Positions 13,667-50,900 of a stretch of DNA of 64,000 bases are shown piece by piece; position 1 is the stretch's first letter, and each line of letters starts with the position of its first letter. The position numbers were made by a program, and so were the translations under genes. The notes under the pieces are model-generated. The model was not told where the DNA came from and did not search any database. It was given only the letters and a program-made list of their open reading frames with translations. Source of the DNA: Ceratodon purpureus (taxonomy: Eukaryota; Streptophyta; Bryopsida; Pseudoditrichales; Ditrichaceae); NCBI GenBank assembly GCA_014871385.1, contig CM026422.1:9960564-10024563 (forward strand). The letters are read 5' to 3'.

Positions 13667-13787
13667 ATGCCTCCACGAAAACTCCCACTTGACCGGCTCA
13701 ATGACGCCGAAGAAACCATCCAACAAGACGACCCTGATCCTACTAAAGAACTGTTGCAATTTTTAAAAGAACAGATGACGGTCTTGG
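13667..13787 (+). pseudogene. E1 gag, first fragment
   Basis: The gag start (MPPRKLPLDR) is read from the ATG at 13667, 85 bases after the LTR, and matches the E3 gag at 47949 almost residue for residue. After about 40 codons it is cut by DNA transposon T between the two copies of TTGG. The frame resumes at 28860. Confidence 0.85.
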
Positions 13788-13806
13788 GGGTTAATGTACG
13801 CTAGAC
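13788..13806 (+). repeat. T left terminal inverted repeat
   Basis: GGGTTAATGTACGCTAGAC matches the right end in inverted orientation at 16 of 19 positions and contains GTAC. Confidence 0.88.
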
Positions 13807-16021
13807 GTAGTGCAGTTTTGGCAAAACAATTATGTACTGTTGGGACCTAGGAGTACGAATATGTACTTCTTGAACACTATCAATGTCGATCCTAGCCGTT
13901 GATTGGATTTCTCGGCAGCTGGGTTTTGTGATTAAGATCAGCCAATGGCGATGGCCAAAACTGACACAAAAGGATTTGTCGTGATCTGGGAAGCCCATGA
14001 TCCAGCTCGACGGAAGTTGGCGCCGGCCAAATTTAAAGACTGTAGCTTGGCGGGAGGGGAGTTCGAGCCTTGGTGGTGGGATCAGATTTGAATGGGGTTG
14101 TGAGCATCCTAGATTTTCCATACCAGGTGTCACTGTACAGTTATCCTGCAGAATCATCCCCCGCATAAATGTATTCTCATCCTACTTCTAAAAACAATGG
14201 ATTCAATAAACATTTGAGCTATGGATAAGTGAAACCTTCACCATTTTTTTAAGTTGAATTTGGGATAAAAAATATTTTGGTAGTGATTGGATTTAAAAAG
14301 TATTATGGAGATAAGAATAGATATAATTAAATTAGAGTAATGTAATGTAATGTAAATGAATTTTTGAGAAGGAATTTGGGGATCAATATGGAAATTCTAT
14401 TGTGATATTTAGTAACGTAGTAAATGTCTTGGTTATTAGTGATAGAGGAAAAGGCATTCTAAAGAATTATATGAAGCAATTTTAGCATTCTATATTTGTA
14501 TTAATATTCTATATTTGTATAATTAGTTATTTTCTATACGTGAGGTATATATGACAAGAAGAGTTTTCTTTTCCGATCAAAAATTAAGTGCATGATTAAT
14601 TGAAGCATTTTATTGTTTACACTTTATGCTTAAAAAATGCATTCAAAAATAACTATATTCATCAATATGAAAAAAAACTATATTCACCAAACTATATTCA
14701 TCAATATTCATCTGCATAAGGGGTTGGAAAAAAAATTAAAAAATAAAGAAAACCAATAAAAACAATAAGCTAACAAAATCAAATATATAGTGGGTTGATT
14801 TGTTTTTTTAAGAAAAAAAATAAAAATAGAAAAAACTATCAAAATGAAATACATGGGGGGTTGAATTTTTTTAAAATAGATAAATAAAAAAACACCCGAA
14901 TAAGCTATCAAAGGCAAATACGAAAGGAGTTGAAAAGAAATGAAGAAATAAAATAAGATAAAGTAAGATGAATTGAGGTTTAGGCTATCAAAATGAAATA
15001 CATAAGGGGTGGAATAAAAAAAAAAAAAAACATTTAAATATAGAGATACAAATACAAATAGAAAAAGCCATTACAATCAAGTACCGAAGGGGTTGGAAAT
15101 TAATTTTAATATGATGAGAAGAATAAGCTATCAAAATCAAATATATAAGCTGTTGAATAAAGAATAAAAAATCAATAAAAATGCTTCCACACCTTGGTGT
15201 CTTTTTTTCCAATGAATAACATTGATACCTTTGTATTTTTGGGAAATTAGTGGACATGGCTATCATGTATCGTTTAGAAGTAAGGAAGCTATGGTGTTTT
15301 TAGAAATTGAATAAGTCCTTTAGAATGTCAACTTCGGGCATTAAAAAATGAGGCAATGAAATATTTAACCCTTCGTGCTATAACTAAATGTATATACAAC
15401 TTTAAAATTTTATATCTAAGACCTATTATTTGAAAAAAAATTAGGTAAGTTATTTGTAGTTTTATGTGGAAGGTTTTGCCACATTTACATTTTTTAATTA
15501 AAGGGTTTGAAGTGACTTGGACAAAGGTTTAGTGGATAAAATTGCACTCTCTACAAAATTTACTTTGATGAATATTTAGGCAAGGAAATTTCCTCACTGA
15601 ACATCTAGTTTTTTTCTTTCTGAAGTATTCTTTATTAACCTTTCCTTTCTTTCATTTTTTTTTATAAATTTTTGTTTTCCTTATCTTCTTTCATTATCAA
15701 TATTTTGGTTTATTTCCTTTCTGTTCACTCTTCTTTATTTTATTATTTTATTAATTTTTTTTCCTTCTCTTCTCTTCTATCATTACTTATTTATTTCTTT
15801 TCAAATTTATTTTTCTTCGGTTCCCTCTTCTTATTATTTGTTTTTTAATTTTTTAATTTTTTTCTAGACAAAGGATGCTATGAATCATTGATGAATTTGG
15901 GGATCAAATTGAAAGAACATTCTAAGGTACATTACTTACATGTCAAAGATGGCGCTAAGTGAAGGACAGAACTTTGTGACTGATGTGGACGCCTTAATAC
16001 CGCCCCCAGGGTTTAAGAACT
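13807..16021. other. T left arm, AT-rich, no gene
   Basis: Long AT-rich DNA with poly-A and T-rich stretches and a degenerate tandem array (listed separately). No ORF with coding character is present on either strand. Confidence 0.6.
14766..15160 (+). repeat. Degenerate tandem array in T left arm
   Basis: Six units resemble AAGCTATCAAAATGAAATAC followed by ATAAGGGGTTGA. They start near 14766, 14834, 14901, 14981, 15064 and 15124, so spacing is about 60-83 bp, with A-rich filler between them. Such subterminal arrays are common transposase-binding regions in large DNA transposons. That role here is inferred. Confidence 0.65.
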
Positions 16022-16122
16022 GGTGACCGGAGGTTACCATCCGGGTTACTCATGGACGCAACCGGTGATCACCGGTAACCAAGGATCAGAGCAGCATTGG
16101 TGACTGGTGACCGCAGGTAACC
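16022..16122 (+). promoter_or_regulatory. Cluster of GGTNACC palindromes upstream of the SET-fusion gene
   Basis: Within 101 bp there are five exact GGTNACC sites (16022, 16032, 16074, 16106, 16116), two near matches ending in T (16044, 16099) and the palindrome GGTGATCACC at 16063-16072. The cluster ends about 260 bases before the ATG at 16381, a typical place for regulator binding. A dimeric regulator, possibly element-encoded, is a reasonable guess. Confidence 0.6.
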
Positions 16123-16380
16123 ATCGTCTCGCACCTCGCCTCGGGGAAAGGCTGTGCAGAGTCCCCAGGGGTTTTGCAACGTTGGTTGCGCTTGGTGTGT
16201 GGGCGGGGAGGCTCGGTGTGGGGAGAGAAGCTTCGAGTAGGGGGAGGGGAGAGATGTGTGGGGTGAGGGGAATTACTCGTGTTTTTTTGGGCCATTGCGC
16301 TGGGTGTGAGCGCCGGCATTGCTATTGAGAGTTGAATTGGAGTTGTGGGCTAGGAGTGTGCGCCGAGAGGTGGGTTTAGC

Positions 16381-19300
16381 ATGGATCGATCCATGAGCGG
16401 GAGGTCTGGGAGCACAGCCAGTGCTTGTGCCGGGAGAAGCGGTTTGGTGAGGGCGAGAGGGAGGCAGGGCGAGTGCAGTGACGAGGAGGGCGACTTGCGG
16501 TCCGCGCGCAAGAAGGCGAGGTCGGCAGTGAAAGGGGGCGGAGGAGGCGACACTACCAGGGATAATGTAGCGCCTCGGAGGAGGGGAGCAGCGACTGCAT
16601 CGGAGCCCTGTGAGAGAGAAGGAGGAGCTACTGTGGGGGCCGAAGGAGGGGGAGCTCTTCATGAAGTCGGGGGAGCTGCAAAGGCTAGCGCGAAGAAGAG
16701 GGGGAAGTCCGTGGGGAGGTCTGAGCGAGCTATCAACAGCGTAGAAGATGTAGACGAGGAGATCGCAAGATTGAAGAAGCCACCAAGAGAGCTCAAGAGG
16801 CGGGATTTCGAGGAGGAATTTGGGCTCCAGAACAAAGGAGAAAATCCGCATCACTTTCGGAGGAGTACTGTTCCCGCTGATTCGTTGCGGAAATTGTTTG
16901 GAAAACCGTATGGAGATGGTGGGCGCGGCGGCTTTTTCTGGCAGGATTGTGACAAGGTTGAGGTCGTTGATAGAGTTAAGTACCTGCATCCGATTCTCTA
17001 CCAACATAGAGAATGGGAGACCCCCAACCTTATCACGGTGCGGTTTGCTGAGGGGATAACTCTCGAGTATGAGGAGGGTGGAGGCCTCGTCAATTGGTGC
17101 GCGTTTGGAGAAGAGACGAACAAGCGACAAAGAAGTCGCTACCAACTGGATCGGGTCAAGCTGGAGGAGCTCCGCAAGAAGATCGCAGAGTCCAGGACCG
17201 TGGAGGGGAAGGGAAGGATTGATGTGCGAGGGAACGAATGGCGGGGAATCAAGGTTGAAGGCGGTTTCAAGGTGAAGATGGAGCAGGGCAGCGATGGAAG
17301 GGAGCAGGGCACGCGGAAGGTGGGGGAGGGAGCAGGATCTCAGGGAACAGTGCGGAGTGGAGGAAGGCTTCGCTATGGTGAGGGGGATGGTGGGCTTGAG
17401 TCCGCAAGGGAGTCGGGGATATGTTTGCAGGAGGACGTTGCAGCTGGAGGGAGGGGTACGGAGTTGAAGAAGGCAGTAGCTTCGGAGCGGCTGGAAGTTG
17501 TTGAAGGTCTGATGGCAGCGATACACTCGGAGCTGAAGCACAAGCGAGAGGAGAAGAAGAAGGCGGCACAGAGGCTTGATGGTGCGGTTTCGAGGAGCAA
17601 ACAGTCGGAATGGGGTGTAGGGACGCTGAAGAAGCAAGAAGAACAGAAGGCAGCGCTGATCAAGGCACTAGAGGAGGGAGGGGGCGATGTCTACAAGGAG
17701 AAAATCAAAATGGAGGGAATCCAAGAACAACTAGCGGAGGAGGATGTGAAGGCTGCATCTGCGAGGGAAGAGCTACAATCCGCGGAAGCCGAGATCCAGT
17801 TGCTGACAAGGGGGTTAGAAAACGGACAGTTACAATTCGACGCTCTTCCAGCAGAGAAATTTGCCCTCAAACAGGGAAGGAGTGGTGCTAATTTCAACCC
17901 CCAACCAATGGTGTATGCACTTGGAGATCCGGCTACAGTAGAGTTTGATGTCACCGATGAGAGCAAGTTCATTCAAATTACTGTTTGTAGCTTGTGCGAT
18001 TTTCCATTTCCTCAGAATGATATAGTTGTTAGCTCTTGTAAGCATCTGTACCATCCCTATTGTGCTTCGGTGTTGTATGTGCGAAGCTGTAAGTGTGTGG
18101 CGGAAGGGTGCGGAGAGTTGTCCCATCCAGACTGGCATCGGAGCTTCGGTTGGGGGGAGCCATCTGCAGAGCTACTAGAGAGGGCGTTGATGTTGGGATT
18201 GGCTGAGGAGAGAAGAAGATTGCTGCATGAGAGAACAGACCAAGCTAGGGCGCTGGTGCCCTTGGATGGTATGTTTACTTGACTTCCAATCTTCGACATT
18301 TCAGTATGTAACCTTCGTAGCGTGCCATTGCTTTCTGATGCTTTGCGGTTTAGGGTGTTCTAGACTACAAGTTCTTTTGTTGTCTCTAAGTGCCTACTGT
18401 CCCCAGAGTTATGTGTACATGGCCTCGGTTACTGGTTTGAGTAGTCTTGAATTGTCTATTGGTACATAGTGTAACTTATGGAATGAAACACTAGGTAAAC
18501 CCAGGAGTCTACTTTGTAGGAAATATTGGAAAGTTTGGTAATGTACCTTCTCACTTGTACTTGTGTATTCTTGTTAAAGGGTGATTTAGCTTCACCCTTC
18601 AAAAGCTATTGTACTGTCTAGATCTAAAAAGGAACTCTCGAAATTTTTAGTACCCACCTAATCAATTCTGCTCAGCCCTATTCTGCCCCTTGACAGCCCC
18701 AGATTCTAATCATTCTGCTCTAATCTACTGCTCCATCAATTCTAGAACCCACAATGCAAGAACCCACAATACAATTCTGCCTTAAGCCCTAGCATTCAAT
18801 GTGCACAATCTCCCATTATCCAAAATTGTTTTCTTATCATTACTCTCTTCACGTACAACCAGATCTGCTCCTAGATCCTGCTCTACAGCAGTAACCTCCT
18901 CCTCCTACTTCCTAACCTCCTCTAACATCCTACCATACCTCTCAAAACACACATCAACAAGAGCAAGAGAGAGTGAGAGCCGCCATGCTCTCACTCCTCA
19001 CTACCCCCCCAAACCCTAGCCGTCGTCATCCACTGTCCGTTTTTCATCCAAGTCGATTTTTCATCCGACTGTCAAAACTTCATCCAAAACGCAGTAACTA
19101 AGAAATCCGCAGTAACTAACTGTTTTTACTGCTCCTAACTGCTTTTACTGCTCCTAGCAGTTTATTGTTACTGCTCCTAGGTAAAAAGGCAAAAAATCCC
19201 TTTAACAATCCTGTCATGTCCATTTGAGTCTGCAAGTGCCTTAGTTTACTTTGAGTTGTAGTAGTTTGTCCTCAGATGTATGGTTAATACAGGGTTGGCT

Positions 19301-22300
19301 TTTAAGAAGGGTACACAGAGTTCTCTAGTAGTACTAAACTTGCATTCTGAATGGACTATGTGTACATAAACTGTGATGGAGGAGTTAAGGATTGAATTGG
19401 GGTCATGGGGAGTATGTGGACACGAGATGTCTTAATGTACTAGCCTAGAAGAAAGTGTATTCCAAGGGTGTACTTCGATGTGATCCACAGATGAGTGTAC
19501 ATTTCAAAGTACGTTTCGGTTTAAAGTAGGTATTACAATTTTCTCTTTGTACAGAGTGTTTAGTATTTAGGTACATGCAACAGACTACAACAAGTACTTC
19601 GTGTACTCGAGATCCAAAGTTTGGGTTGAAAATGTACTAACTTCCCTTGTACGCAGTGAGCACTGTACTTGATGGAGCTACAACAGGTATTTCTTGTCTT
19701 CTATCCACTTTAAACTAAAAGTCGTCTAGGTTTGTCACTAATCCAGTAGGGTTTAGGGAGTACAGTAAATACTCCGGCTTAGTACAGAAGCTCTATTAGT
19801 GTAGTTCTTACAGGTAGAGATAGTACTAGTTCATTAGTACATCCTAGAGTGCTTGTGTATTTTAGTACATTGTTTACATCTTCTACAATGTCTAATGTTG
19901 TGTGTTATGGCAGGCTCCAGCTTGAGGTTTGCACCACCTCCTTTAGCGTTGGGCAATTCAAGTCGCGGCGTGGAGGGAGAGATTGCGCAGCCCGATTGGT
20001 CGACAAGGGAATGTGAGGGATACAGGAAGGCAGCGACTTTGATGGCAAAGGGAGCGCGGTCTCTTGAGAGGCGAGAAAGAAGTGAAGTGAAGCCGGTTGA
20101 GGGAGTGGTGATGGAGGCCTTGACGGGTGGCAATCCTTTGAAGGGATCAGGACCCGATTTGGACTCTGAAGAAGATTCTTCGGAGGATGAAGAAGAGATA
20201 AAGATGTCAAAAGACCATTCCAGCTCTGGCACGACGGTTACAGGTGCCAACGACGAGGACGATGCAGATTCCGAGGAGGCAACGGGGGATGGTGAGGATG
20301 GGGGTTGTGACGACGATGATCAAACTGAGCAACCCGTCTTGGTAGCCAGCCCAGCCCAGCTCAGTCCCACTCTCACGGCACCATCTCCACTGGATGGCAT
20401 TGCGTTTTTCAGGGTTGTCCAGACCGGCGGGGCAGCGGGAGGAGGCATGCAAATACTGGTAGGAGACGGCGAGCCAGAGGGAGGAGATCCCTCTTTGGCA
20501 AGAGGAGGGGGCAGCAGCCAAGGGGAAGGAGGGGGAAGCAGGCCAAAAGGAGGAGGAGGCAGCAGGCACGGGGAAGGAGGGGGCAGCAGGCAGGGGGAAG
20601 GAGGGGGCAGCAGGCCAGCAGGAGGAGGGGGAAGGAGCCCAGTGGGAGAAGGAGGCAGCACCTCAGTGGGAGGAGGCGGCAGCACCCCAGTGGGAGGAGG
20701 GGGCAGCACCCCAGCGGGAGGAGGGGGCAGCACCCCAGCGGAAGTAACCAAGTGTTTCTCGGTAGGGGGAGGCAGTCTACTGGATTTAGTGATGGAGGCC
20801 TCAGGAGTGGGCCATAGTCCAGCGCATCAGAGGGATAATGAGAAGCGTGAGGAGGGGAAGTTGCAGATAGAAGAAGGGGAGAAGGGCAAGGAGAGGAAGT
20901 CATCACCGCAGGCTCTAAAGAGCATCCCAGCGAAACCAGGATCCCAATGCCTGCCAGGACGCAAAGCAAAGGGGGGGAAGGTAGGGGAGCCCACGGCAAA
21001 GGGAGCGCAGCCGGCTGTGAAAGGAGGAGAGCCATGCGGGAAGGAAGGGGAGCCAGCCACAAAGGGAGGATCTCCCGTAGCAAAGCAAGGAGAGCCAGAG
21101 TCAAAAGAAGTGGAGCCCGCAGCAGCAAAAGAAGGAGAGCCTCCCGCATCGAAGGGGACAAAATCAGCAGTGGAGAGTCCTAGGTCTCGTTTCAAGCTAA
21201 GGGCAAAGAGGGCGCGCGGTCCAAGCGTGTCCGATGACACAACACCAGGGGATCTTACTGCACCAGAAAACATCTACTCGGCTGAGAAGACGACCTATAA
21301 GGAGCTTACAGAGATTGCCGATGGAGGGGGCAGCAGCCCAATCGTTGCAGAGGGACAAGTGCGAACCAGAGCACGCACTGCAAAGGAGGCCCAGCCAGCA
21401 TCAGAAGAATCTCCTTCGACCAAGGTTAAGAATAAACGGGGGGAAAAGGTCAAGGGTGATAAGGTAGGTGGCGCTCTCTTACTAAAGAGACGGAGAGGTG
21501 CCACATAGAATGAGGGTCAGAGTGTAGACTGTCGTTACAGTTCATTATTTTTGTTTTTTTTGGTTTTTGCTATCAAGCAGTTTACCTGCACTAGTATGCT
21601 TGGATAAATTGGCATTGCAGGTACTTCCATGTATCATACCTCATCTATGAGGCCCCTCTAACGAGAACTGTTCACGGCTGAGATTCTCTGTTTATCCATT
21701 GGCGTTGATGTTTTTTTTAATAAGTTTGTTCCTTGATGAATTATTTGATGTTTTCAGTTCTTGAATAACTATGCAGTAGGTAGTTGGTTGCTCCGATGTT
21801 GGATATTTTCTTGCACTTTGTTTTTTTCACATCATGACTTGGGAAGGTGGTCTGGTGGGATGTGATTCAACCAGGCCGACAGTTGGTATGATCCTGAAGA
21901 TCTGTCTAATGGGCTCGAGAGGGTGCCTATCCTTGTTGGTCAGTCTGATATTGCTATGCGTTATTTTCAGTATGTGAACTCTAGTGTGGTCTATGACCAA
22001 GCCCGGGTACCTACCACCCTAGAGAGTTTCCGACCCGGGGACTACTGCTTGTGTTCCTCAGAATGTCTCCGTGGAACTGGTACGTGTGCATGCCAAGAGC
22101 AGTCCCTAGGTGGAGTCGGCTACAGCGATGGAGGACTTCTGGAGGACATGGCTCTTGATCGGTTCAACACCGGCGATGCTAACTACTGTAAGAAGGATTC
22201 ACTGTGTCTAAATGGAAATGAAGTTTGTGAGGGTCATGTGCCTCGCCCATTTGTTAAGGAGTGCAATGTTAAGTGTAGGTGTCGTGGTGATTGTGGGAAT

Positions 22301-22938
22301 CGTGTTGTTCAGCAGGGGATGAAGTATCAAGTAGAGGTTTTTCGTACAGCCCTTACGGGATGGGGGATTTGGACATGTGAGCATATACCTAGAGGTGCAT
22401 TTGTTTTTGAGTTGATGGGAGAGATTTTAACTAATGCTGAGCAAATGTTTAGAAATTTGGGGGTAGATGGGGGTCAGTCCTATAGCTTGCAACTCGATGC
22501 TGATTGGGCCACAGAGCGGAATTTGGACGACAACAATGCATTGTGCTTGGACAGTGCTCGATTTGGAAATGTTGCCAGATTTTTGAACCACAGGTTAGAG
22601 TCTGATTCCATTTTCACTACATCGACCTCCCCTTCCTTGTGTCCAATTCAATGTGACCTGACCGTGGGCCTTTGTCCTACAGGTGGGAAGATTCTAACTT
22701 AGTGGACATTCCAGTGTCAATAGAGAGTGTTGATCGCCGGTATTACCATGTGGCATTCTTTGCTAGTCGAATTATATATCCTGGAGAGGAACTAACCTGG
22801 GATTATGGCACAAATTTTTCTAAAGAAGATCCAGATTTGCCTAAATTTACTTGTAAATGCAAAAGTGCTAAGTGTAGGGACGGTACAGTACCACTTGCAG
22901 TCCGAAAGCCCCCCCGCACACCGCGTAGGAGTAGATGA
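16381..22938 (+). CDS. SET-domain fusion protein: accessory domain, coiled coil, RING-like, Gly/Ser repeats, pre-SET/SET/post-SET
   Basis: Exons 16381-18268, 19914-21463, 21875-22593 and 22683-22938 join in phase with GT-AG introns to about 1,470 residues. Exon 1 has a basic disordered start, an accessory domain (HPILYQHREW, then GGGLVNW) like those of T2/T3, a coiled coil and a RING-like finger (C-x2-C, CKHLYHPYC, CKC, later Cys/His). Exon 2 is acidic, then Gly/Ser-repeat, then Lys/Glu/Pro-rich. Exon 3 opens with a stretch ending SNGLERVP, then a pre-SET Cys cluster (CLCSSEC, CRCRGDCGNRVV), then SET (GWGIW, ELMGE). Exon 4 has GEELTWDYG and post-SET CKCKSAKC. SUVR/G9a-type enzymes of this build methylate H3K9. 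The usual NHSC motif reads NHRW, so activity is uncertain. The first in-frame ATG is used. If the second intron is not spliced, the product ends at TAG 21506. Confidence 0.72.
18269..19913 (+). other. Intron 1 of the SET-fusion gene, GTAC-rich
   Basis: GTATGT donor at 18269 and GGCAG acceptor at 19913, with a matching split Gly codon. In 19261-19860 I count about 20 GTAC tetramers where two or three are expected. I see no convincing coding sequence. Confidence 0.65.
20502..20742 (+). repeat. Coding tandem repeat (Gly/Ser) in the SET-fusion gene
   Basis: About eleven units of 18-30 bp encode variants of EGGGSRQG and then GGGGSTPV. The first half carries Arg/Gln, the second Thr/Pro. The tract resembles a long flexible linker between the RING-like part and the SET part. 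Copy number is likely to vary between element copies. Confidence 0.85.
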
Positions 22939-23899
22939 CTTCGGCATTGTGCTTGAACTTTACCATTTTCTGAAGTATGCACACATTTGCACATTCTTGT
23001 ATTTTTCGTATTTTTCATGCGGCTGCCCTTAATGTTCGTACAGACGGGATGTAATTCAAGTGACAGTCAGCTTCTCTATTGTCTGTAGAGCTGTAGACTT
23101 TGTCTTTGCACATGATTTGGATGTATTGTACTTACAAATAGACCAGCTGCAAAATGTTGAGCACTTAAGCAAGTAGCATTCATCTATAACAAACATTACA
23201 CACTCCAGTAAAACAGAGAAGAATTTAAATTGAGTTGATAAACTCACGCAATAATTTGAGGTAGCAAATCAGTATTTCAAACTGCTATAAGTACTTTCGA
23301 TGGTATTGTTTGAGTACTCTTAGTACTTGTCGAAACACCAACCAGTACTTCTAAAACCAACCCCAAATGAGAAACAAACCTCTCACCAAGGTCTGATAGC
23401 TCCCAATTTCTACATTCCGCATATCACTGCTATCCTCAGATATGAGCTCTTGAGGTACCGCTATCTAGTGCTCCCTGTAAAAGGGCCAAAAAAAAAGGAA
23501 AATAACTACAGTTCCTAATATCCAGCAAAATGTAGAACTATGATCGTCCAGCTTGACTCAAAATGAAAAAAGAAAAGGCACACTAAAAAGGTACGGACTC
23601 AAAAGAGAGTGACATTAGAAGGTACAAAATGAAATTTAAAAAAGAAGATTAGAAAGAATAAAATAAAAGAAAGGGATTGCAGGTTCTCTTAATCACAGAC
23701 TACTATGCCAGACAGTAGATGACTGAAGCAAAAAAAAGGGGGAGCACTTGGATAGCGGGACATCTCTAGAGCTCACTTTCAGTCAGACAAATACCCAAGC
23801 ATTTGTTTGACTTGTATCATCACGGGACCACTCCTTCTAAAACCAACGTCAAATGAGAAACTATCGTGAAATCAGAGTACAGAGTGGACCAACTTGTAC
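22939..23899. other. Spacer between the convergent SET-fusion and transposase genes
   Basis: Non-coding, fairly AT-rich, with GTAC/AGTACT motifs (23290-23345) and A-rich runs (23560-23660). It presumably holds both polyadenylation regions. No ORF of interest. Confidence 0.6.
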
Positions 23900-26800
23900 T
23901 TAATCTGCATTGAACGCCCACCACTCTCGCAAAGCATCTTCACATATCCTTTGTGTTTCACTTGACATCTTGTATACGGGAGTACCCTTTACCCTGTGTG
24001 GAGCAAGAACCATCGGAAATTTGCAAGCTCTAACCAGATGGGCATCAACGTGGGCATCAACTGCTCTGTCACACAGTACATATGTCTTCTCTCCACGACC
24101 ATACTTCTTGTAGTATTTTGCCTTGATCACAATGTCTCCGGCCCTGAATACGCCCCCCCATGGGCAAGTCATGGGTTCTGTTAAGACGAACTTCTTGGCT
24201 TGACACTGGAGAATGTAGAACTCCACCCCGTCTTCGTTGTCTTCTTCCGCTGGAATCATGAAGTTGTCACCAATGTCCACCAAGTCTCCCACCTCCTCGG
24301 AAACGCCGTCATACACCCAGTTTGCTTCCTCGTCAATTTCTTCAATTTGTTGAGCTACGGCACTTGCACTGAATGGTCGGAGCCTTTGGACCTGCCACTC
24401 CTCCACATGCGACAAGTTCTCACACTCAGTCCAATCACCATCTATGCAGGTATTACAGAAGCAAGACAACTCACGAGTTCTAAGCATGGTAGGATCAGTC
24501 ATAGAAAATCCCATGATTGAGTAGAGACTCTTCGAGCCTGGCAAAGTGTTACACTTCACACTCTTGTCAGCATGATCACATTCTGTATCTCCAATCAACC
24601 AGAATACTCGGGATAGAGGAGCAATTCTGGTTTGTGCATATGAGCTAGGAACACGCTCTGTATATTTCTCCTCCAAAAACTCCACAACTTGAGCTGCATT
24701 TTGTAAGGGCCTCAAGGGATTCTGAATTTGTTCAGCAGCAAGTGCCCTCTTCATCACAGCCCCTGCCCCATCCCATTCCCCCTTCCCATGAGCCGATTCA
24801 AAGTAATTCCAACGCATCTTGCAGCCACCGGTGAGCGCAGGGTACCGAGCAACGAAATACATAGCTGTTGCACACTTAAATTGGGCACTGCATCCGTCAC
24901 TGTACACCCAATGCTCCTCTGGAGTCAACCCCGAATCTCTTAGCCAATCCCAATGCAACAGCAAACAATGTTGCACAAACGCTGAATCGTGCGCCTTGTC
25001 GTCGGATATGTAGAAATGAGTTTGTTTCATGGTTTGCTCGCCTTCCTTCCACATTGTGATGTGCACCAAGATGGTCACACTCGTACTGAAGTAGTACAAG
25101 CTCTGGACCTCGTTTTGGATAGCAAATGTATAGTTCTCCGCATAGTCAATATGCGATATGACAACTCCCTCGGGCACGTTTTTCATCATCAATTGGCACT
25201 GCTCATCTTGCCATCGTGCTTTGAAGTTGTGGGTGATGAAGGTGGTCACGGTTTTCTCCATGTACGAAAGGAATTCGTGGGCAGGTGTCTCTCTGAAAGC
25301 CTCCCGCAACCGTTTCTTCACCTTTCCAGTCTGTGCATCCACTCCCACCTGGTAGTACTCAAAGCACTTCCATTTCACAAGGGCCGTGTTAGAAGCAGAC
25401 AACTCTAGAGGATAGATAGGAAAGAGATGGAAACCACAATGAGGACAGTCGCCGATAAGGCACTGAAGTCTATGCCACACATCGTACTCCCCTTTTGGAC
25501 ACACACATGACTCCCACATCAAGGGTATTCGCTTGAAAACATTCTCATGTGCATGACAACTCCCCTCCACATTGCCTGCGCACACTTGACAGTCACAAAC
25601 ACAGATCATCTGCGCATGCAGTCCTCGAGACTTCTCTCTGAGGTTGCTTAATCCAACCTTCATCATGTCCATCTCGACATGATATATACAACAACATGTA
25701 TTCCTCTCCTTTAGTTTTCGCACCCACCACGGCTTCAACCTCTCAAAAGCTCTCTGCCGCACACTGCATTCTGGATGGACTTCTTTGAATCGTAAGAAGA
25801 ATGTGGTCTGCAAAACACATACGCGAATCCATCAGGTACAAAAGGTCTCCCAGGCCTAAGTCCATAATATGGACAGATGGTACATAATTGTACTGAATGC
25901 AACAAACTACTACCACTGAGTACAAAAACGCATTGACACATACATTCAGGACCATTGTGTACAATTCACACTGCTATAAGTACTTTGTGGAGAACCAACT
26001 TCGGGGATATGGTAGGGTTTTAGGACTACCGTCGGTCGCTAAAATACTCGAAGTACTAAACGGTCAAACTTGTACATGGAAACTGATTAGTCCCAATTGT
26101 GAATGCTAAATTAAGGTAACAACGTACATGCTCTAGTATATTCTTTATACAATAAGTACATTGAAGGAACTTCTAATGTACATCTATAACTTTAAATTCC
26201 TACTGATACAACACTGAGTAGTTTTATGTACAAAGAGACAATCGACTTGATATCACAGAGTACTAGGAACACGTTTAGAACCACTTCTGTACTTCTCATT
26301 CCTAGTGGTTAGAAGTACAAGACCTTTAGAGGAATCAATGAATACGATAAGTACAAGTGATATTTCGCTCAAGAGAGACCACATGACAAGCTAAATTTAC
26401 AAAGAGTACACCTCCCAGCTACTCTATAGACCGAGGTTATCTAGGGACTTTTTTTTCCAACATTATGTATGTAAGACTACAGACTAGATAGAAAACGCAG
26501 TGCAGTAGTTACAGGGCAACTCATGTCGAGTACTCTCCATTTTTTTAACTACCTTCTTTGTACAACAGGAGCTCAAAAGCACAAGGACTAAGCATTCAGC
26601 TCTGCCAAAAAAATGAATATTTTTTGGAGTCTTATAACTTACCTGAGTCTCACAGAGATAATGTGTTGGATGCGGCTCGGCCCAGTCTCTGCGACCTACT
26701 CTGTGCCGCACAATGTCCTTCTTGTTTGGCGATACCTTAGTCTGACCATTCCACCAGGCCTCTATGCACTGCTTCACATACTCAGACAGACCCCCTCTCT

Positions 26801-27440
26801 TTTTCCGATGAAGACGAAGACTACAAACCGTGTCTGCTTGGTTGGGGGCGTAAACCCTTCTACTCAATGCAATACTGATGCTTGCTTGTGTTGTATCCAA
26901 AACGCGTGACAGGGGCCTCACCCCATCAATCCCCAAACTGACAGCGGCATCCAACAAGGCACTCTTCCTTGCTAAGCGCTCGTTTGAGTTGGCCACCTTC
27001 ACCAACTGCAACTCGTTTTTGAAGTTCTCAATAAAAGAATGAATCACCTTTGCTTCCTGTGGCCGAGCATAGTACACAGGAAGCAAAGGCAAAATAGTGT
27101 TATGACGCATGACCCTCTCTATAACATCTCTCCTACTCGATGGACCGGGACAACTTCTCAACTCCTTGACTACATACTGTGCAATGCGAAGGGACATCCG
27201 GTTTAACTCCCGCACTGTCATGCTGTCTTCAACATCGTCATTTGGCAGCACTGAAGCTAAAACCAGGGTCTCCTTGTGTCTCTGTCTATCTCTAGCTCTT
27301 TGACGAGCCTTCCTTTCTCTGGCCCTATCTGTAGCTGCTGCATGTAGCTCTTCCTGCAAGCGGACCTCAGCCTGCCTAGCTGCGAGACCAGGACGACTAA
27401 CACCATGTCGTAATCGCTGCCTCTTAGCAGTGTTACCCAT
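23900..27440 (-). CDS. T transposase (DDE-like), two exons
   Basis: The minus-strand exons 27440-26643 and 25807-23900 join in phase 0 (donor CAG|GTAAGT, acceptor TTTGCAG; 835-bp intron) to about 901 residues. The N-terminal 100 residues are strongly basic and probably bind DNA. A helical region follows with a segment like those before DDE cores (WAEPHPTHYLCETQ). The second exon has a Cys/His-rich module (CVCDCQVCAG, CPKGEYD, CPHCGFH), then HIDYAENY, YSDGCSAQFK and FESAHGKGEWDGAGAVMKR. This triplet of motifs, with an HGKG-x2-DG-x-G-x3-KR signature, is one I know from uncharacterised transposase-like proteins in animals. I take the two Asp and a later acidic residue as the catalytic triad. The start ATG at 27440 is chosen because seven upstream codons lack a conserved look. 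Confidence 0.75.
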
Positions 27441-27627
27441 TGCGGTAAATCTAATACACAATCACACGTCAAAAACCAAGCCACGGATCAGATACGTTAC
27501 ACTAAAGTAGAGTATGTAGTTGAAGAGTTGAGAAGCTAACACGGTTCAATAGTACTGCATGAGAAACAAAGAAGAATCACAGTGTCATGAGTCTAAAACG
27601 GGAACTCACCCTTGAGCCTCAGCCTCT

Positions 27628-27975
27628 CTACTTCCTAAACGCAACTGATTCGCAAGAAGCAGTAGGAGACCCAACTGAAACCCTTCCGACCGAAACAGAC
27701 GGTGATCGCTCGAAGCTGCTGGTGGAATAAGAATACGAAACTGGACTCATGAATAGAGAACGCCTTGGGGACTCATCTACGTTGTTGCACTTGCCAAGGT
27801 AGAAATCGCGATTCCCTTGTTTAGACACTGGGGTTTCTTCAACATATCCAGACTCAGATATCTCACTAAGTGAATGGTAACAAGAAGATTCAAACTCAGA
27901 AATCACCTCCTTCGTAAAATAAGAAGTAATCAGTCTCTGAACTAGAACAGCTTGGTGTGGTGTGGACCTTGACAT
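27628..27975 (-). CDS. Small Ser-rich ORF upstream of the T transposase
   Basis: An ATG-initiated 115-codon ORF, rich in Ser, Glu and Val, ends in TAG about 20 bases before a good donor (AAGG|GTGAGT) that could splice toward the transposase exon. It could be a 5' exon whose frame I cannot join, a regulatory upstream ORF, or chance. No domain is recognised. Confidence 0.35.
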   Translation of the reverse strand: MSRSTPHQAVLVQRLITSYFTKEVISEFESSCYHSLSEISESGYVEETPVSKQGNRDFYLGKCNNVDESPRRSLFMSPVSYSYSTSSFERSPSVSVGRVSVGSPTASCESVAFRK

Positions 27976-28836
27976 TATTCAGAAGGGAAGAACAAGCGGC
28001 TAAAAACTCATGCAGTCGATGTGTCTCGCTACACACACTACGAACTACAGCATTCAACCTAAACCCTTGCACGCAGCATGAACATCAACACATGAGGAAC
28101 AGCGTACTGAATCAAAGGTGAGCAACAGTGTGCTGCAAGCGTCAGGAAGGGACATGAACGAGAGAGACGATGACGTGGAAAAAATCACAAGGTGGCGGCG
28201 CCTTCATGACATGGCGGCCTGGCAGAATAGGATCTGGCATCAAAAACAAGGCAGTAGTTATTACACATTACGAGTACAATATATACGTCTAAGTACATTT
28301 AGTACAAGTAGCACGCAGGAAGGCGTCGAGGGCCAAGTAACGGAAAAATGATTTTTTGCTTAATTTGAGAGATGGCCATTCTAGAAACATGTCCTGCCGT
28401 CTAGAATCACAGACCCGATTAAGAAAAATATAATTTTCTACTTCGTAAGCCGTTGCAACCGAAGCCAGCATTTACTTCTAAGATCTATGCAAATTAAGTG
28501 ACGTACTTGTAGAATTTACGACGGATCCCAGAAGACTGGTTCTTCTTATCTCCTCTAAGAAAAAAGAAAACAAGATCTGAACCTTTGAGGCTTACCAAAT
28601 TTGTACTTTTTAAAATCTGAATACAGTGTGACTTTTCCATAGTACTTGACAATAGTACTTTTTTTGGACAATTAACTTCGTTTTCTAAGTAACTCAATAA
28701 CGTAGAAGAGACTTCACCTATGTAGAACTAAACAAAGCAAACCAAAAAAAGGAATTGAAATGCCTAAGCTAAGGTAATACGAAGTACAAAGTAATGTACT
28801 CTTTGACTAGTGTACTGTGACTCAAAAAGTACATTG
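27976..28836. other. T right arm, GTAC-rich, no gene
   Basis: Non-coding. From 28240 to the terminus I count about a dozen GTAC tetramers, many as AGTAC or GTACTT, in both orientations. The array runs up to the right TIR. Confidence 0.6.
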
Positions 28837-28855
28837 GTCTAGCGTACACACACCC
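28837..28855 (-). repeat. T right terminal inverted repeat
   Basis: GTCTAGCGTACACACACCC is the inverse of the left TIR at 16 of 19 positions and is followed by TTGG. Confidence 0.88.
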
Positions 28856-30596
28856 TTGGCTGCCAAAAATGAAGCCACGAATGCCAAGCTGGAACTCCTA
28901 AGCCTACATCTACATGGAACCGCTACCAACGAGGCAGCTAACGCTACCCCTCACGACTTGGAAGCACCCTTGGATCCTCTTAGATCAACTACACTTCCCA
29001 GAGAAAACCGCACTGCTGTAACATCACAGAGCGGAGGTGACCAAGAAAGGGTAACCAAATTTCCAAAAATACCATACCCGGTTTTTGACGAATCGGGAGA
29101 TCCTGACTGGCACATTCGCAGATTCAAAGTCATTGCTCGAACAAATGGTATACTTAGCTCCCTGGATTTACAGAACATTTTCGGTACCACGCTCCAAGGA
29201 AATCACATCAATTGGTACATTGATTTTGAAACCGAACACCCCTATGCCAACTGGGACGACATGGAACGCAGTTTCTTGCACAAATTTTGAAAGCTAAAAA
29301 CTAGCTCAGAGATACTCAGGGCTTTGGGTACTATCACCCAAGACAGAAACGAACTCGTGGACAAATTCTATGACAGATTCAAGCAATTGGCGGACAAGCT
29401 TAATCAACGGCCTGAAGAAGACTATCTATGTGAGTGGTTCAAAAAAGGCTTGTTACCATGGATTCAACAAGGTATTGTGATTCGTAGAGTTAAGACGTTA
29501 AGTGACATAGTCACGGAAGCCAATGACATAAGTAGAGAACTTGGAGCTCTAAACCGTACACAGTCACCACTGTTGCCCTTACCCACTTTGAGACCCAAAA
29601 ATCGCCAAGCACCCACGGTTTGTAGCACTTGTGGTAAAATACATAGTGGCCGTTGCTGTTTCGCTCAAGGAAGCTCCCGACCAGAAGAAAACAGACGCCC
29701 ACGGCCCACAGCAGCCTCCATGTACGCCGAGGAAGTACACGTAGACGCTTTTCAGCCGGGAAGGAATGATAGGTGCTGGGAATGCGGATCGCCCAATCAC
29801 CGACGAGGCCAATGCCCACACTTAAGGCAGCGCTGGAGTCAAACTCAAGGACCTTCGGAGATACATCGATCCGCTCCTACCACCATGGAAAACCAGAAAC
29901 CACCGGTCCAGAACCGTCGGGGCGGGGTTACACTAACTGAAGTACATAATGCTGAGACGAACGTGGCAGCCATCAGCGCCGCGGCAGTCACTACCCGCTC
30001 CAAGGCTACCGTGACTGAACATGTCGTGGAACACAGAAAACCCTTTCCCCCAAATCACTGGGAACGCTTGCATGATATCCGCAGAGACTTACAGAAAGGT
30101 CTAGAAATGACCACGACAAGCCCAGACCTTCAAAGCATACTGGAAGACACGAACGTCACCATAACTTTGTCCAAGTTATTAAAACTCAGCCCCGAATTAC
30201 ACAAGTATTTGCACCAAGTTACTCTGCCAGATACTAGAACAGATCCTACAGTGGTCGAGGTAAACGCAACCACCTTGGACCCTGATGCTGCAGTAATCCA
30301 CCTACAACTTGGACATCATGAGCTTACTAATGTGTTGGTTGACGGAGGATCTGGTGTGAATGTCATGAGTGAACACTTACGGAAACATTTGGGACTACCT
30401 CAACCAAAGACAGCCAAGTTTATCCTCCGAATGGCCAATGACGACCTTGTCACACCCTTGGGAATCTTAACCACCGTAGCCATCACCACCCATGGAGTAT
30501 TGACACCAGCTACGTTCGTCATTATAAACATGCCAAATAGTAGCAACTTCCCAATCATCCTGGGAAGGCCATGGCTCCGAGATATGAACGCGATAC
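28856..30596 (+). pseudogene. E1 gag (rest) and protease
   Basis: The frame resumes after T and encodes the gag body (FPKIPYPVFDESGD..DWHIRRF), a zinc knuckle (CWECGSPNHRRGQC, about 29772-29813) preceded by a C-x2-C..C cluster, then an aspartic protease (LVDGGSGVN at about 30335-30360; ILGRPWL near its end). A TGA at 29288-29290 stands where E3 has CGA, a C-to-T change at a CpG. The ORF is cut after RDMNAI by E2 at TSD GATAC and resumes at 46778. Confidence 0.85.
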
Positions 30597-47120: not shown

Positions 47121-47864
47121 TGTAACCCGACCACGGGCACCATGGCAAGACCAGGAGAAGAGTGGGACGAACAAGCAGTCAGCAGATCCCCACCGTAACA
47201 GACTGGGAGTTCGAAGATATTACCCAAGGAGTAACAGGGAGTTAGGAATGCGGAAATAGCAGGATTTGAATAGTATAAAGGCAAGGCGAGTACAGTAGCT
47301 AGCTCTCTTGATTTTCCACGGACTCTAAGCTAGTTTTGCTGTACTTAGCTCACCGTAGACAGACTCTTAGAGCGTCACTCACCGAGGACACTATCTCCTC
47401 CCTTTGTTCCCGATCCTCTCAAGGACCACACTTCTATCTACAAACAACTCTTCTATTTTGCTTTACACTCCGATCTATTGCTTTGCTTTACTATCTGTAT
47501 TCCTTGCTATTCTGCCTGTCTGAATACCCTTAATGCTTATGGTGGTGCTGGTTCATTAGTTGCCTCTTGGTCTGCTGGGACTCTGTCCGACTGTCTTGGT
47601 CCATCCTTGGTGTACCGAGAATCTTTTCCAAAGCCCTCTGGGCCATCACAGAGTCTTGGGGCTCGTAACGTAACCGCTCCTTGTTCCTTTCCCCGATACT
47701 CCCAAGTTACAACCCACAGCTGGCAGTTACTAGCCCTCCCCGCACCGGGACTCCCGGTCACCAGACACTACCCTTGCTACATTATACTAGTACCCTGTCC
47801 TCACTTAAGGTAGGCCTCTTTTCCTCTGGCGATCTCAGACCTCCATGGACAACCCAGACTAACA
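47121..47864 (+). repeat. E3 5' LTR (744 bp)
   Basis: TGTAACCCGACC...GACTAACA. A TATA-like AGTATAAAGG lies near 47272, about 150 bases inside the LTR. Confidence 0.92.
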
Positions 47865-47867
47865 TTT

Positions 47868-47885
47868 TGGCGACCATGCTGGGGA
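47868..47885 (+). other. E3 primer binding site
   Basis: TGGCGACCATGCTGGGGA, matching E1 with one difference. Confidence 0.75.
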
Positions 47886-47948
47886 TGGAAAGTTGAGATC
47901 AGAACAACAATCCCTACGACCAAGGACACCAAGTTCTAGGGTGCCACC

Positions 47949-50900
47949 ATGCCACCACGGAAACTACCACTTGATCGAATCAATGACACCGAAGAAATTG
48001 TCCAGCAGGACGACCCTGACCCGACTAAAGAATTACTACAATTTCTAAAAGACCAGATGACCGCCTTGGCAGCCAAGACTGAGGCTACAAACGCCAAATT
48101 AGAGCTGCTAAATCTCCAATACCAGAATCTCCATGGAACATCAACAAATGAGGCAGTCCATGCTACGCCTCATGATTTAGAAGCACCATTGGACCCCCTG
48201 AGATCCACTACTCTTCCTAGAGAAAACTGTACTGCCATGACGTCCTAAAATGGGGACGACCCAAACAGAATTGTCAAATTTCCCAAAATCCCTTATCCCG
48301 TCTTTGATGAATCAAGCGACCCTGATTGGCACATTCGACGGTTCAAAGTCATTGCACGTACCAATGGCATCCTTAGCTCCTTGGATTTACAAAACATCTT
48401 TGGCACCACACTCCAAGGAAATCCAATAAATTGGTACATTGATTTTGAAACCGAGCACCCCCATGCCAACTGGGACGATATGGAACGCAGTTTTTTACAC
48501 AAATTCCGAAAGTTAAAAACTAGTTCAGAGATACTCAGGGCTTTGGGCAGCATTACTCAGGACAGAAACGAACCTGTGGACAAGTTTTACGATCGATTTA
48601 AACAATTATCAGACAAACTTAGCCAACGGCCTGAGGAGGATTATTTATGCGAATGGTTCAAAAAGGGACTATTACCGTGGATTCAGCAAGGTATTGTGAT
48701 TCGTGGTGTCAAAACATTTAGAGACATACTCACCGCAGCCAACGATATTAGCCGGGAACTTGGCGCATTAAACCGCACTCAGGCTCCGTTATTACCGTTG
48801 CCAACACTGAGAACCGAAAACCGACCAGCCCTCACGGTCTGTGGCACCTGTGGAAAGGTACACATCGGACGCTGCTGGTTCGCACAAGGAGGCTCACGTC
48901 CTGACGACAATCGACGACCGCGCCCTACCAGCGCTGCCATGTATACCGAGGATGTCAATGTCGATGCTTTTCAGCCAGGACGCAATGACACGTGCTGGCA
49001 GTGCGGGTCCCCAAATCACAGAAGAAGCCAATGTCCGTTGCTTCGACAAAGATGGGCACAACACCAAGGACCTACAGACCCACACCGACCCTCACCAACC
49101 CCCATGGAAAATACAAAGCAAACCATGCCAAATCGCCGGGGTGGTGTAACGCTCACCGAAGTTCACAATGCTGAAACTAATGTAGCAACCATCAGTGCTA
49201 CTGCAGTCACCACGCGCTCCAAGGCTACCCCGGCAGACCACGTCGTGGAACATAGAAAACCTTTCCCCACGGATCACTGGGACAGATTACATGATATCCG
49301 CAAAGGTTTACAAAAGGAATTGGAAATGGCCAAGCCGAACTCAGAAATCCAACACATACTAGAAGATACAAACGTTACCATCACATTATCAAAATTATTG
49401 AGATTGAGCCCAGAGTTACACCAATACCTCCAACAGGCTAGCTTGTCAGACACTACCTTTGACCCTACGGTAATTGAGGTTAATGCCACTACCTTGGACC
49501 CCGATGCCGCGGTCATACACCTTCAGCTAGGCCACCACGAGTTAACTAATGTGTTGGTAGATGGCGGATCTGGCGTCAATGTGATGAGTGAACACTTAAG
49601 GAAACGTTTAGGATTACCTCCTCCAAAAACTGCCAAGTTTATCTTACGAATGGCCAACGATGATCCAGTAACACCCTTAGGAATCTTGGCCACCGTAGCC
49701 ATCAGGCCCATCACCACGCATGGAGTCTCCACGCCACCAACGTTTGTTATCATCGATATGCCAAATAGTAGTAATTTCCCGATTATCCTTGGACGGCCAT
49801 GGCTCAGGGATATGAATGCCGTCCATGATTGGTCTCGGAATCACATTCGAATTCAACGCCAAGGAAAAACAGTGATAATTCCCGTGGATAGCTGTATCAC
49901 CAGAGCCAAGGCAGCTCAGATACGACACAAAGCAGGGACGGATTGGGTCAGAGGCCTGTCCCAAGATCAGGAAACTTTGGTACTCTATGCAAACCCCGAT
50001 ATCATTCCCCTGGCAGAGATCCACTTAGCTAGTCTGGTTACTGCTCCGGAAAAGATTGATTTGCCACCACGGTTCTCCAAGGAAATCGCAGAATCAGTTA
50101 CCGTAAATACAACTCCAGCTTTTCGCGCCCTTGAAAAAGAGGTGGTTAATGGCTGGACTCATGGAGCCAAGGATAGGGTAGAATTGGTTAATCTAGGAAC
50201 ATCCGAGGACCCCAAGTTTATCAAAATCAACGCAGACGCTCCAACTACCATCAAAAAGGCTGCGATCGCTTTGTTCCATGAATACCAAGATATATTCGCT
50301 TGGAATCATGAGGATCTTAAGGGCATCCCGAGAAACTTAGCAGAGCATACCATTGACTTGGTACCCAACGCCACCCCTGTACAACAAAGACGTTACCGAA
50401 TGAATCCAAATTATGCGTCTAGAGTAAAAGAAGAATTGGATAAACTCCTCCAAGCCAAGTTTATATCCCCAGTTGACTCAGCACCATGGCTATCCCCAAT
50501 GGTCATCATTACAAAAAAGAATGGTGCACTACGCATCTGTGTAGATTTCCGAAAACTCAATGCAGCCACAAGAAAAGACCACTATCCCTTGCCATACATG
50601 GAAGAAATAATTGATGAAGTTGCAGGACACGAGATGTACTCATTTTTAGATTTTTTTTCAGGGTACTACCAGGTAGCCATGGCAGAACAAGACAAAAATA
50701 AAACGACTTTTTCAACGGAGTGGGGACCTTACCAGTTCGAGCGTATGCCGTTTGGAGCCAAAAATGCACCCATGACATTCCAAAGGGTCATGGAACTTAT
50801 CTTCCGACCCTACCTAAAACGGTTCTTTTGAATATATTTGGACGATGGCACCGTTTACGGTCAAATACAAGATCATGTCGCCCATCTTAGGCTAATTTTT

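Follow-up and report, generated by a model that had tools for sequence, protein, structure and literature searches.

Within a 64,000-nucleotide (nt) stretch of the genome of the moss Ceratodon purpureus (hereafter the window, to which all positions refer), a DNA transposon of 15,068 bp occupies positions 13788–28855, inserted in the gag frame of a retrotransposon. It carries two convergent genes: a transposase on the minus strand and, on the plus strand, a four-exon gene (hereafter the fusion gene) whose product of about 1,466 residues combines a RING-like region, a coiled coil and a SET domain. The evidence presented below argues, with good confidence, for a high-copy cut-and-paste family with unfixed 4-bp target site duplications (TSDs), in which a transposase with a predicted RNase H fold and the convergent RING-like/coiled-coil/SET gene are co-inherited and both kept by purifying selection. 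The SET gene seems to be one of the element's working components and not a stray passenger.

A mobile family with unfixed target sites

The ends of the element were read from the sequence. The left terminal inverted repeat (TIR), GGGTTAATGTACGCTAGAC, lies at 13788–13806 on the plus strand and the right TIR (reverse complement GGGTGTGTGTACGCTAGAC) at 28837–28855 on the minus strand; both are 19 bp long and they are identical at 16 of 19 positions. They are flanked by the two copies of a TTGG duplication, at 13784–13787 and 28856–28859. An empty site is provided by a related, uninterrupted gag at 47840–48340 of the window, which aligns straight across the junction with a single TTGG; it is a related gag copy, not an allelic one, and serves for the window copy only. 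An earlier note on this DNA had described the 19-bp TIRs, the TTGG duplication and the restoration of the gag frame on removal of the element, all of which are confirmed by the ends and by the uninterrupted gag.

Further copies were compared in the assembly of the same genome (362,488,568 bases in 151 contigs, with the window on contig C2 and contig C6 measuring 110.5 Mb); they are named by contig, such as C7a or C6b. Ten of them were picked for having a listed transposase and a listed fusion exon 1, before any SET list was seen. Counting the window copy, perfect 4-bp TSDs were found in 8 of the 11 copies, and all are different: TTGG, TTCT, TAAT, AGTA, ATTA, ATCT (read by eye from two halves), CCCG, and AAGA. 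These eight show no sequence preference. For C10, C13b, and C9b, one or both ends could not be located in the DNA retrieved. The 19 bases of the left TIR are identical in seven left ends (window, C7a, C9a, C6a, C6b, C8, and C10), with slight differences in C10a and C13a. The left ends of these last two copies are 99.4% identical over 640 bp, yet they lie at different sites with different TSDs, and therefore whole units have moved recently. The left 400 bp of the element have at least 41 matches in the genome. The features of an autonomous cut-and-paste TIR DNA transposon are thus all present, namely TIRs with TSDs and an empty site, an RNase H-fold DDD/E transposase, and one gene set repeated in numerous dispersed copies.

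The SET gene travels with the transposase

Matches in the genome were scored for the best candidates, and their numbers are hence lower bounds: 69 of 1,616 candidates for the transposase, 70 of 2,100 for fusion exon 1, 139 of 755 for SET, 150 of 315 for Pre-SET, and 72 of 1,544 for P0013, a relative 41% identical to the window transposase. A convergent SET gene, or a remnant of one, lies beside 64 of the 69 scored transposases. In 52 cases this was seen from the match lists, an opposite-strand SET exon being located 96–1,524 bp past the 3' end of the transposase; random reshuffling of the SET positions inside each contig gave 0.065 such cases on average and never more than 1 over 200 trials. 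For the remaining 17 transposases, about 2.2 kb of DNA beyond the 3' end was read, and a convergent SET or remnant was present in 12. Starting from fusion exon 1, 52 of 70 matches have a same-strand SET exon no more than 20 kb downstream.

The ten other copies confirm this arrangement. SET, post-SET, and transposase are all present with the order and strands that they have in the window copy, the transposase exon 1 of C10 being only partial. Fusion exon 1 is present in nine of the ten and falls outside the fetched DNA in the tenth; C8 and C10 were each read in two pieces, left and right, separated by unread DNA. Identity to the window copy falls in step for the two genes, the transposase dropping from 99% to 78% and SET from 99% to 46% (Spearman correlation 0.99 over 12 other copies, which are not independent).

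The pairing extends to more distant relatives. A search with P0013 yielded at least 72 transposases, 43 of them new, and 16 of these 43 have a listed convergent Pre-SET or SET within 3 kb, a figure based on only part of the Pre-SET list. In the clade nearest P0013, in which the two transposases measured are 47–48% identical to that of the window, no convergent SET was found among the matches listed, but all five stretches fetched hold a convergent SET gene. The SET genes of these five stretches have extra introns, possibly the older gene structure, and are about 30–50% identical piece by piece. Judged by these sequence identities, the pairing of transposase and SET is old relative to the family, and the two genes have been co-inherited through deep divergence.

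That the SET gene is instead host cargo captured by one copy of an element otherwise without SET is very remote: the capture of gene pieces is known from plant transposons (PMC13317346, in excerpt) and host SUVH genes are present in the same genome, but the linkage at 64 of 69 transposases rules it out, and the SET gene is moreover common to the 47–48% clade and to subfamilies with transposase identities as low as 78%, is under purifying selection, and has only about 29–37% identity to the two host SUVH proteins. The earlier note had presented the SET gene as a component of the element, for which several copies with different TSDs should each hold both genes; ten other copies do so, with different perfect TSDs in eight of the 11. 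The opposite pattern that it had named, with copies devoid of SET and a SET gene at a single locus, is not what the genome holds.

Both genes under purifying selection

Ratios of nonsynonymous to synonymous substitution rates (dN/dS) were obtained by the NG86 method, between subfamilies unless stated. In the fusion gene they are 0.25–0.34 for SET (at dS 0.53–0.65), 0.12–0.17 for post-SET (at dS above 0.9), and 0.16–0.19 for exon 1 where dS is unsaturated. In the transposase, they are 0.12–0.16 for exon 1 and 0.07–0.08 for exon 2 (at dS 0.81–1.0). As read from these ratios, both genes are under purifying selection. The SET exon is free of stops in all 11 copies.

A RING-like/coiled-coil/SET fusion

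The four exons of the fusion gene are on the plus strand. Exon 1 (16393–18268, at least 70 scored matches in the genome) encodes a charged N-terminus, a coiled coil, and a RING-like cysteine cluster; a further in-frame ATG is found at 16381. It is followed by intron 1 (18269–19913) and by exon 2 (19914–21463), a low-complexity, fast-evolving exon with GGGGS-type and EPA-type peptide repeats, the GGGGS-type repeat being in tandem at 20500–20750. Exon 3 (21875–22593, at least 139 matches) encodes the pre-SET and most of the SET domain, and exon 4 (22683–22938) the end of SET (ELTWDYG) and the post-SET motif CxCx4C; the first full codon of exon 4 encodes W in the window copy and C in the ten other copies. 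Comparison with database relatives had raised the suspicion of a one-base deletion at the start of exon 3, which was dropped, the upstream residues of these relatives fitting better with an intron ending in CAG.

The Pre-SET (39.9 bits, cut-off 29.1) and SET (35.6 bits, cut-off 22.4) domains both score above the curated Pfam cut-offs. The convergent plus-strand gene with pre-SET, SET, and post-SET motifs that the first reading had recognized is thereby substantiated. A pre-SET with nine conserved cysteines, followed by SET and post-SET, is the arrangement of SUV39-class methyltransferases (EHMT1/2, SETMAR, Clr4, SUV39H2, and plant SUVH). The best Protein Data Bank match of the SET part is EHMT1 (E 1.8e-32), and both SETMAR domains are also among the matches of the analysis. 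The residues NHRC..NLV are reminiscent of the plant protein SUVR4. All four motifs GWG, NHxC, ELTWDYG, and CxCx4C are intact in 9 of the 11 copies. The fusion differs from the SUV39 class by its RING-like/coiled-coil N-terminus: Pfam found no match to SRA or ankyrin among its exons, whereas both host SUVH genes carry an SRA domain (E 5.2e-48 and 3.8e-30).

It is doubtful that the plus-strand exons make up two or three separate genes instead of a single fusion. Exon 2 is of low complexity and poorly conserved, and the joining of the exons is predicted from the DNA, which leaves some room for this explanation. The exon phases nevertheless fit, and the donor and acceptor sites are kept across copies, including a donor-preserving change from GTATGT to GTAAGT. 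An exon-1 relative (P0074) and a SET relative (P0044) share a longest-contig size of 8,592 in one public source, which is only suggestive. Shared contig sizes (5,267 for P0003/P0051 and 8,592 for P0044/P0074) were rejected as proof of linkage, as a size of 2,787 coincides across different sources (P0063/P0078).

The transposase

The minus-strand transposase, already noted as DDE-like, comprises two exons: exon 1 (26643–27440) encodes the N-terminal part and exon 2 (23900–25807, at least 69 matches in the genome) the RNase H-like core, with an intron at 25808–26642. It is of the DDD type. Across 30 sequences, D229 and D312 are invariant and D354 is nearly so (numbering of the frame at 23903–25831, minus strand), and the protein is predicted to adopt an RNase H fold, in which three acidic residues are conserved. 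Foldseek comparison of its model gave weak matches to NurA, Argonaute, and RNase H, and a second look pointed to integrases. It matched no Pfam or NCBIfam model, an absence that does not prove it to be of another type than Harbinger or MuDR. A distant relative of 581 residues, P0037, ends in a C-terminal chromodomain (Pfam Chromo, E 1.4e-8); a chromatin-reading part therefore occurs in the wider transposase lineage.

GTAC arrays in the non-coding DNA

GTAC is the most over-represented 4-mer by z-score in the non-coding DNA of the element, with 75 sites in 7,323 nt (the nested insertion described below being excluded) against 25.9 ± 5.1 expected from first-order Markov sequences. This enrichment does not figure in the earlier note. 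Most of the sites fall within introns, the intergenic space, or the right terminal part, with 23 in fusion intron 1 (8.0 expected, again without the nested insertion), 19 in the transposase intron (4.6 expected), and 10 in 949 nt of the space between the convergent genes, 22940–23902 (2.5 expected). The transposase intron and the intergenic space are GTAC-dense in the 10 copies where they could be delimited, as is fusion intron 1 in 6, and parts of two distant subfamilies are dense as well. Between transposase introns that are 52–56% identical, 9–10 of 19–21 GTAC sites are shared, versus 7–10% of the 4-mers that do not overlap GTAC. The window's clade thus has a short element motif enriched in its non-coding DNA, as expected of a VANC-like system; specificity with respect to other transposons of the genome was gauged on the rest of the window.

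A possible role in setting the silencing state

How the fusion might serve the element can be proposed as follows. It would be an element-encoded, catalytically competent SUV39-class lysine methyltransferase, and it would act in trans on the chromatin of the element's own copies; the element, rather than the host, would then set its own silencing state. A methyltransferase working in this manner has, on the strength of the sequences, about an even chance of being right, and its direction could go either way, toward anti-silencing or toward self-restraint. With less assurance, and by analogy with VANC proteins and the motifs of VANDAL elements, the fusion may be guided by the dense GTAC sites of introns and intergenic DNA. 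The RING-like region hints weakly at a ubiquitin-linked action.

A number of observations weigh against this picture. Five of the 69 transposases have no SET in the approximately 2.2 kb read alongside, one of them being faced by a convergent SET exon at a distance of about 8 kb. The RING match is under the Pfam cut-off (E 0.012) and the predicted structure of the RING exon is poor, with a predicted local distance difference test (pLDDT) score of 48.5. Stops interrupt fusion exon 1 in 3 of 10 copies and the transposase exons in several. Between very close copies, some dN/dS ratios come near to 1 (0.93 and 0.96 for exon 1 in the window-C8 and window-C6b comparisons; 0.74–0.89 for transposase exon 1); these values are as expected for copies decaying after insertion and lend no support to selection at that time scale. 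Individual copies are damaged in the SET part: C13b has ELTWAYG instead of ELTWDYG, the exon 3 acceptor of C6b has changed from AG to AA, and exon 3 of C8 ends in A. The window copy has NHRW for NHRC, with loss of a zinc cysteine that the ten other copies retain, and W replaces R after GWGI; neither change occurs in any other of the 11 copies. From these residues, the window copy probably combines an impaired, not fully functional SET enzyme with an open transposase frame. As for GTAC, the remainder of the window also has a slight excess (166 sites versus 133 ± 12, z 2.7), the left terminal 2.6 kb reaches a z of only 1.8, and no enrichment was found in three of the five SET-side stretches of the 47–48% clade, the other two having local clusters.

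The best surviving alternative concerns the arrays. SBP-box proteins bind a GTAC core, and the arrays could be sites for host SBP-box (SPL) factors or for the transposase, unrelated to the SET fusion. This explanation is a serious one, only a little short of evenly balanced, and host SBP-box factors are the main alternative reader of GTAC. The TIR itself contains TGTACG, in keeping with it. The concentration of the sites in introns, the intergenic space, and the right terminal part, with 7 sites versus 3.6 expected in the left terminal 2.6 kb, argues the other way, but against classical subterminal transposase sites only.

Another explanation is that the fusion represses the element itself or rival copies, as self-restraint or copy-number control through methylation of histone H3 at lysine 9 (H3K9). 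SUV39-class SET enzymes are usually repressive, and the catalytic signature is intact in 9 of the 11 copies. The presence of at least 275 SET or Pre-SET loci, of which no fewer than two are host genes, does not however suggest tight restraint, and this role is considered rather unlikely, if worth keeping in view.

Unlikely too, and somewhat more so, is that the SET enzyme serves transposition, either by methylating the transposase or a partner, or by marking or reading target chromatin so that insertion occurs in heterochromatin or repeats. The position of the window copy inside a retrotransposon, the chromodomain that ends P0037, and the over-representation of matches on the 110-Mb contig C6 are consistent with such a role. 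But C6 is probably a non-recombining sex chromosome, on which we infer that transposon build-up is expected anyway, and the TSDs show no sequence preference. A role in the silencing state is favored over one in choosing targets or within the reaction of transposition.

The most elaborate version of the silencing proposal is improbable as a whole. The fusion would recognize the element's own GTAC arrays, its RING-like part would ubiquitinate histones there, and its SET part, stimulated by ubiquitin, would methylate H3K9 or a related lysine, so that the element would decide between silence and mobility; the enzyme would probably have spread to hundreds of loci, with the majority on the probable sex chromosome. 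The fusion would then correspond, in a single polypeptide, to complexes of an E3 ligase and a methyltransferase such as the Clr4 complex of fission yeast.

Comparison with known systems

The comparisons that follow draw on excerpts of the papers cited. SET-bearing DNA transposons are already known: genes for SET histone methyltransferases are present in HarbingerS and MuDR elements of Phytophthora (Kojima and Jurka 2014, cited in PMC12730594). The earlier note, which knew of no described DNA transposon with such a fusion architecture, thus put the case too strongly. As in the moss element, a SET methyltransferase gene rides along in a DNA transposon. The differences, as far as descriptions can be compared, are that the moss transposase has no Pfam or NCBIfam match, that the 4-bp TSDs are unfixed, that the host is a plant, and that SET forms the C-terminus of a RING-like/coiled-coil fusion. 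Fungal DNA transposons carrying TET/JBP genes likewise illustrate the carriage of an epigenetic-mark enzyme by several transposon lineages, but their enzymes act on methylcytosine, whereas that of the moss element is of the histone methyltransferase type (PMC12730594).

The VANC/VANDAL pair of Arabidopsis is an anti-silencing system of the MuDR type, in which VANC21 targets short motifs that are dense in the introns, intergenic, and terminal non-coding DNA of VANDAL21 and that vary among related elements (PMC5735166). The moss element resembles it in a short motif packed in its introns, between its genes and in non-coding terminal DNA, in arrays that differ between related elements, in tandem peptide motifs within variable regions (compare the GGGGS-type repeat of exon 2), and, if the proposal above holds, in an element-encoded factor acting on silencing. 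By contrast, the excerpts of PMC5735166 mention no SET domain for VANC, and the VANC motif is YAGTATTAY whereas the moss motif is the palindrome GTAC, the binding of which is putative.

SETMAR of primates, in which a lysine methyltransferase domain is fused to a single intact copy of the Hsmar1 mariner transposase (PMC9062482), also combines a SET domain with a transposase; in the moss, the two genes are separate, convergent, mobile, and present in many copies. Finally, Sola2 elements have 4-bp TSDs, TIRs of 12–13 bp, a transposase of 888 residues in one element, and an AWWT target in the Dictyostelium group (PMC3627910). Despite the 4-bp TSDs, the short TIRs, and a transposase of similar length, the moss element was not assigned to Sola, none of its eight TSDs fitting AWWT; this comparison, too, was by description only.

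A SET-carrying moss transposon was not found among the papers listed in searches of the open-licence literature, the reach of which does not include Repbase Reports and subscription papers. A 2026 review of plant gene capture covers VANC, and its main text does not contain the words 'histone', 'methyltransferase', or 'SET domain' (PMC13317346). What is new here is a transposase lineage without library match, a plant host, the RING-like/SET fusion, deep co-inheritance, and the GTAC arrays. The earlier note is thus confirmed in what it observed and partly supported in its interpretation, that of a mobile element writing or perturbing host heterochromatin marks.

Other insertions in the window

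Fusion intron 1 contains a nested insertion of 636 bp (18572–19207) with the ends TTAAAGGG...CCCTTTAA. It was recognized by comparison with C7a, from which it is absent, is not part of the family, and looks like a small non-autonomous DNA element. Three pairs of near-identical repeats are found between 12761 and 63216: 47121–47864/56049–56792 (99.6%), 30592–31019/46345–46772 (99.5%), and 13053–13581/62685–63216 (97.4%). They suggest nested retrotransposons, with an outer long terminal repeat (LTR) element interrupted by the SET-bearing transposon and by two younger LTR elements. Viral contigs gave 45 pattern matches, none of which was confirmed.

Transposon-borne SET genes in the genome

A Pre-SET search of the genome gave at least 147 matches, the two best of which are the host SUVH genes; the matches listed are mostly other sequences, and no host SUVR gene was identified among them. 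The SET and Pre-SET lists have 11 loci in common and together make up the at least 275 distinct loci mentioned above. Among the matches listed, C6, which represents 30% of the genome, holds 36 of 69 transposases, 101 of 139 SET exons, and 94 of 147 Pre-SET matches. The U and V chromosomes of C. purpureus exceed 100 Mb each, or about 30% of a 360-Mb genome (PMC8000587, in excerpt), and C6 is probably one of these non-recombining sex chromosomes. Many, perhaps most, of the pre-SET sequences of this genome may be transposon-borne, the neighboring transposase having been checked for a minority of the single loci. Transposon-borne SET loci matter for any count of histone methyltransferases in such genomes, and the GTAC arrays offer an immediate handle on testing self-recognition. 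H3K9 methylation is usually seen as a weapon of the host against transposons. A SUV39-class enzyme kept by a transposon through long divergence, under purifying selection, suggests that writing such marks, or interfering with them, benefits the element itself.

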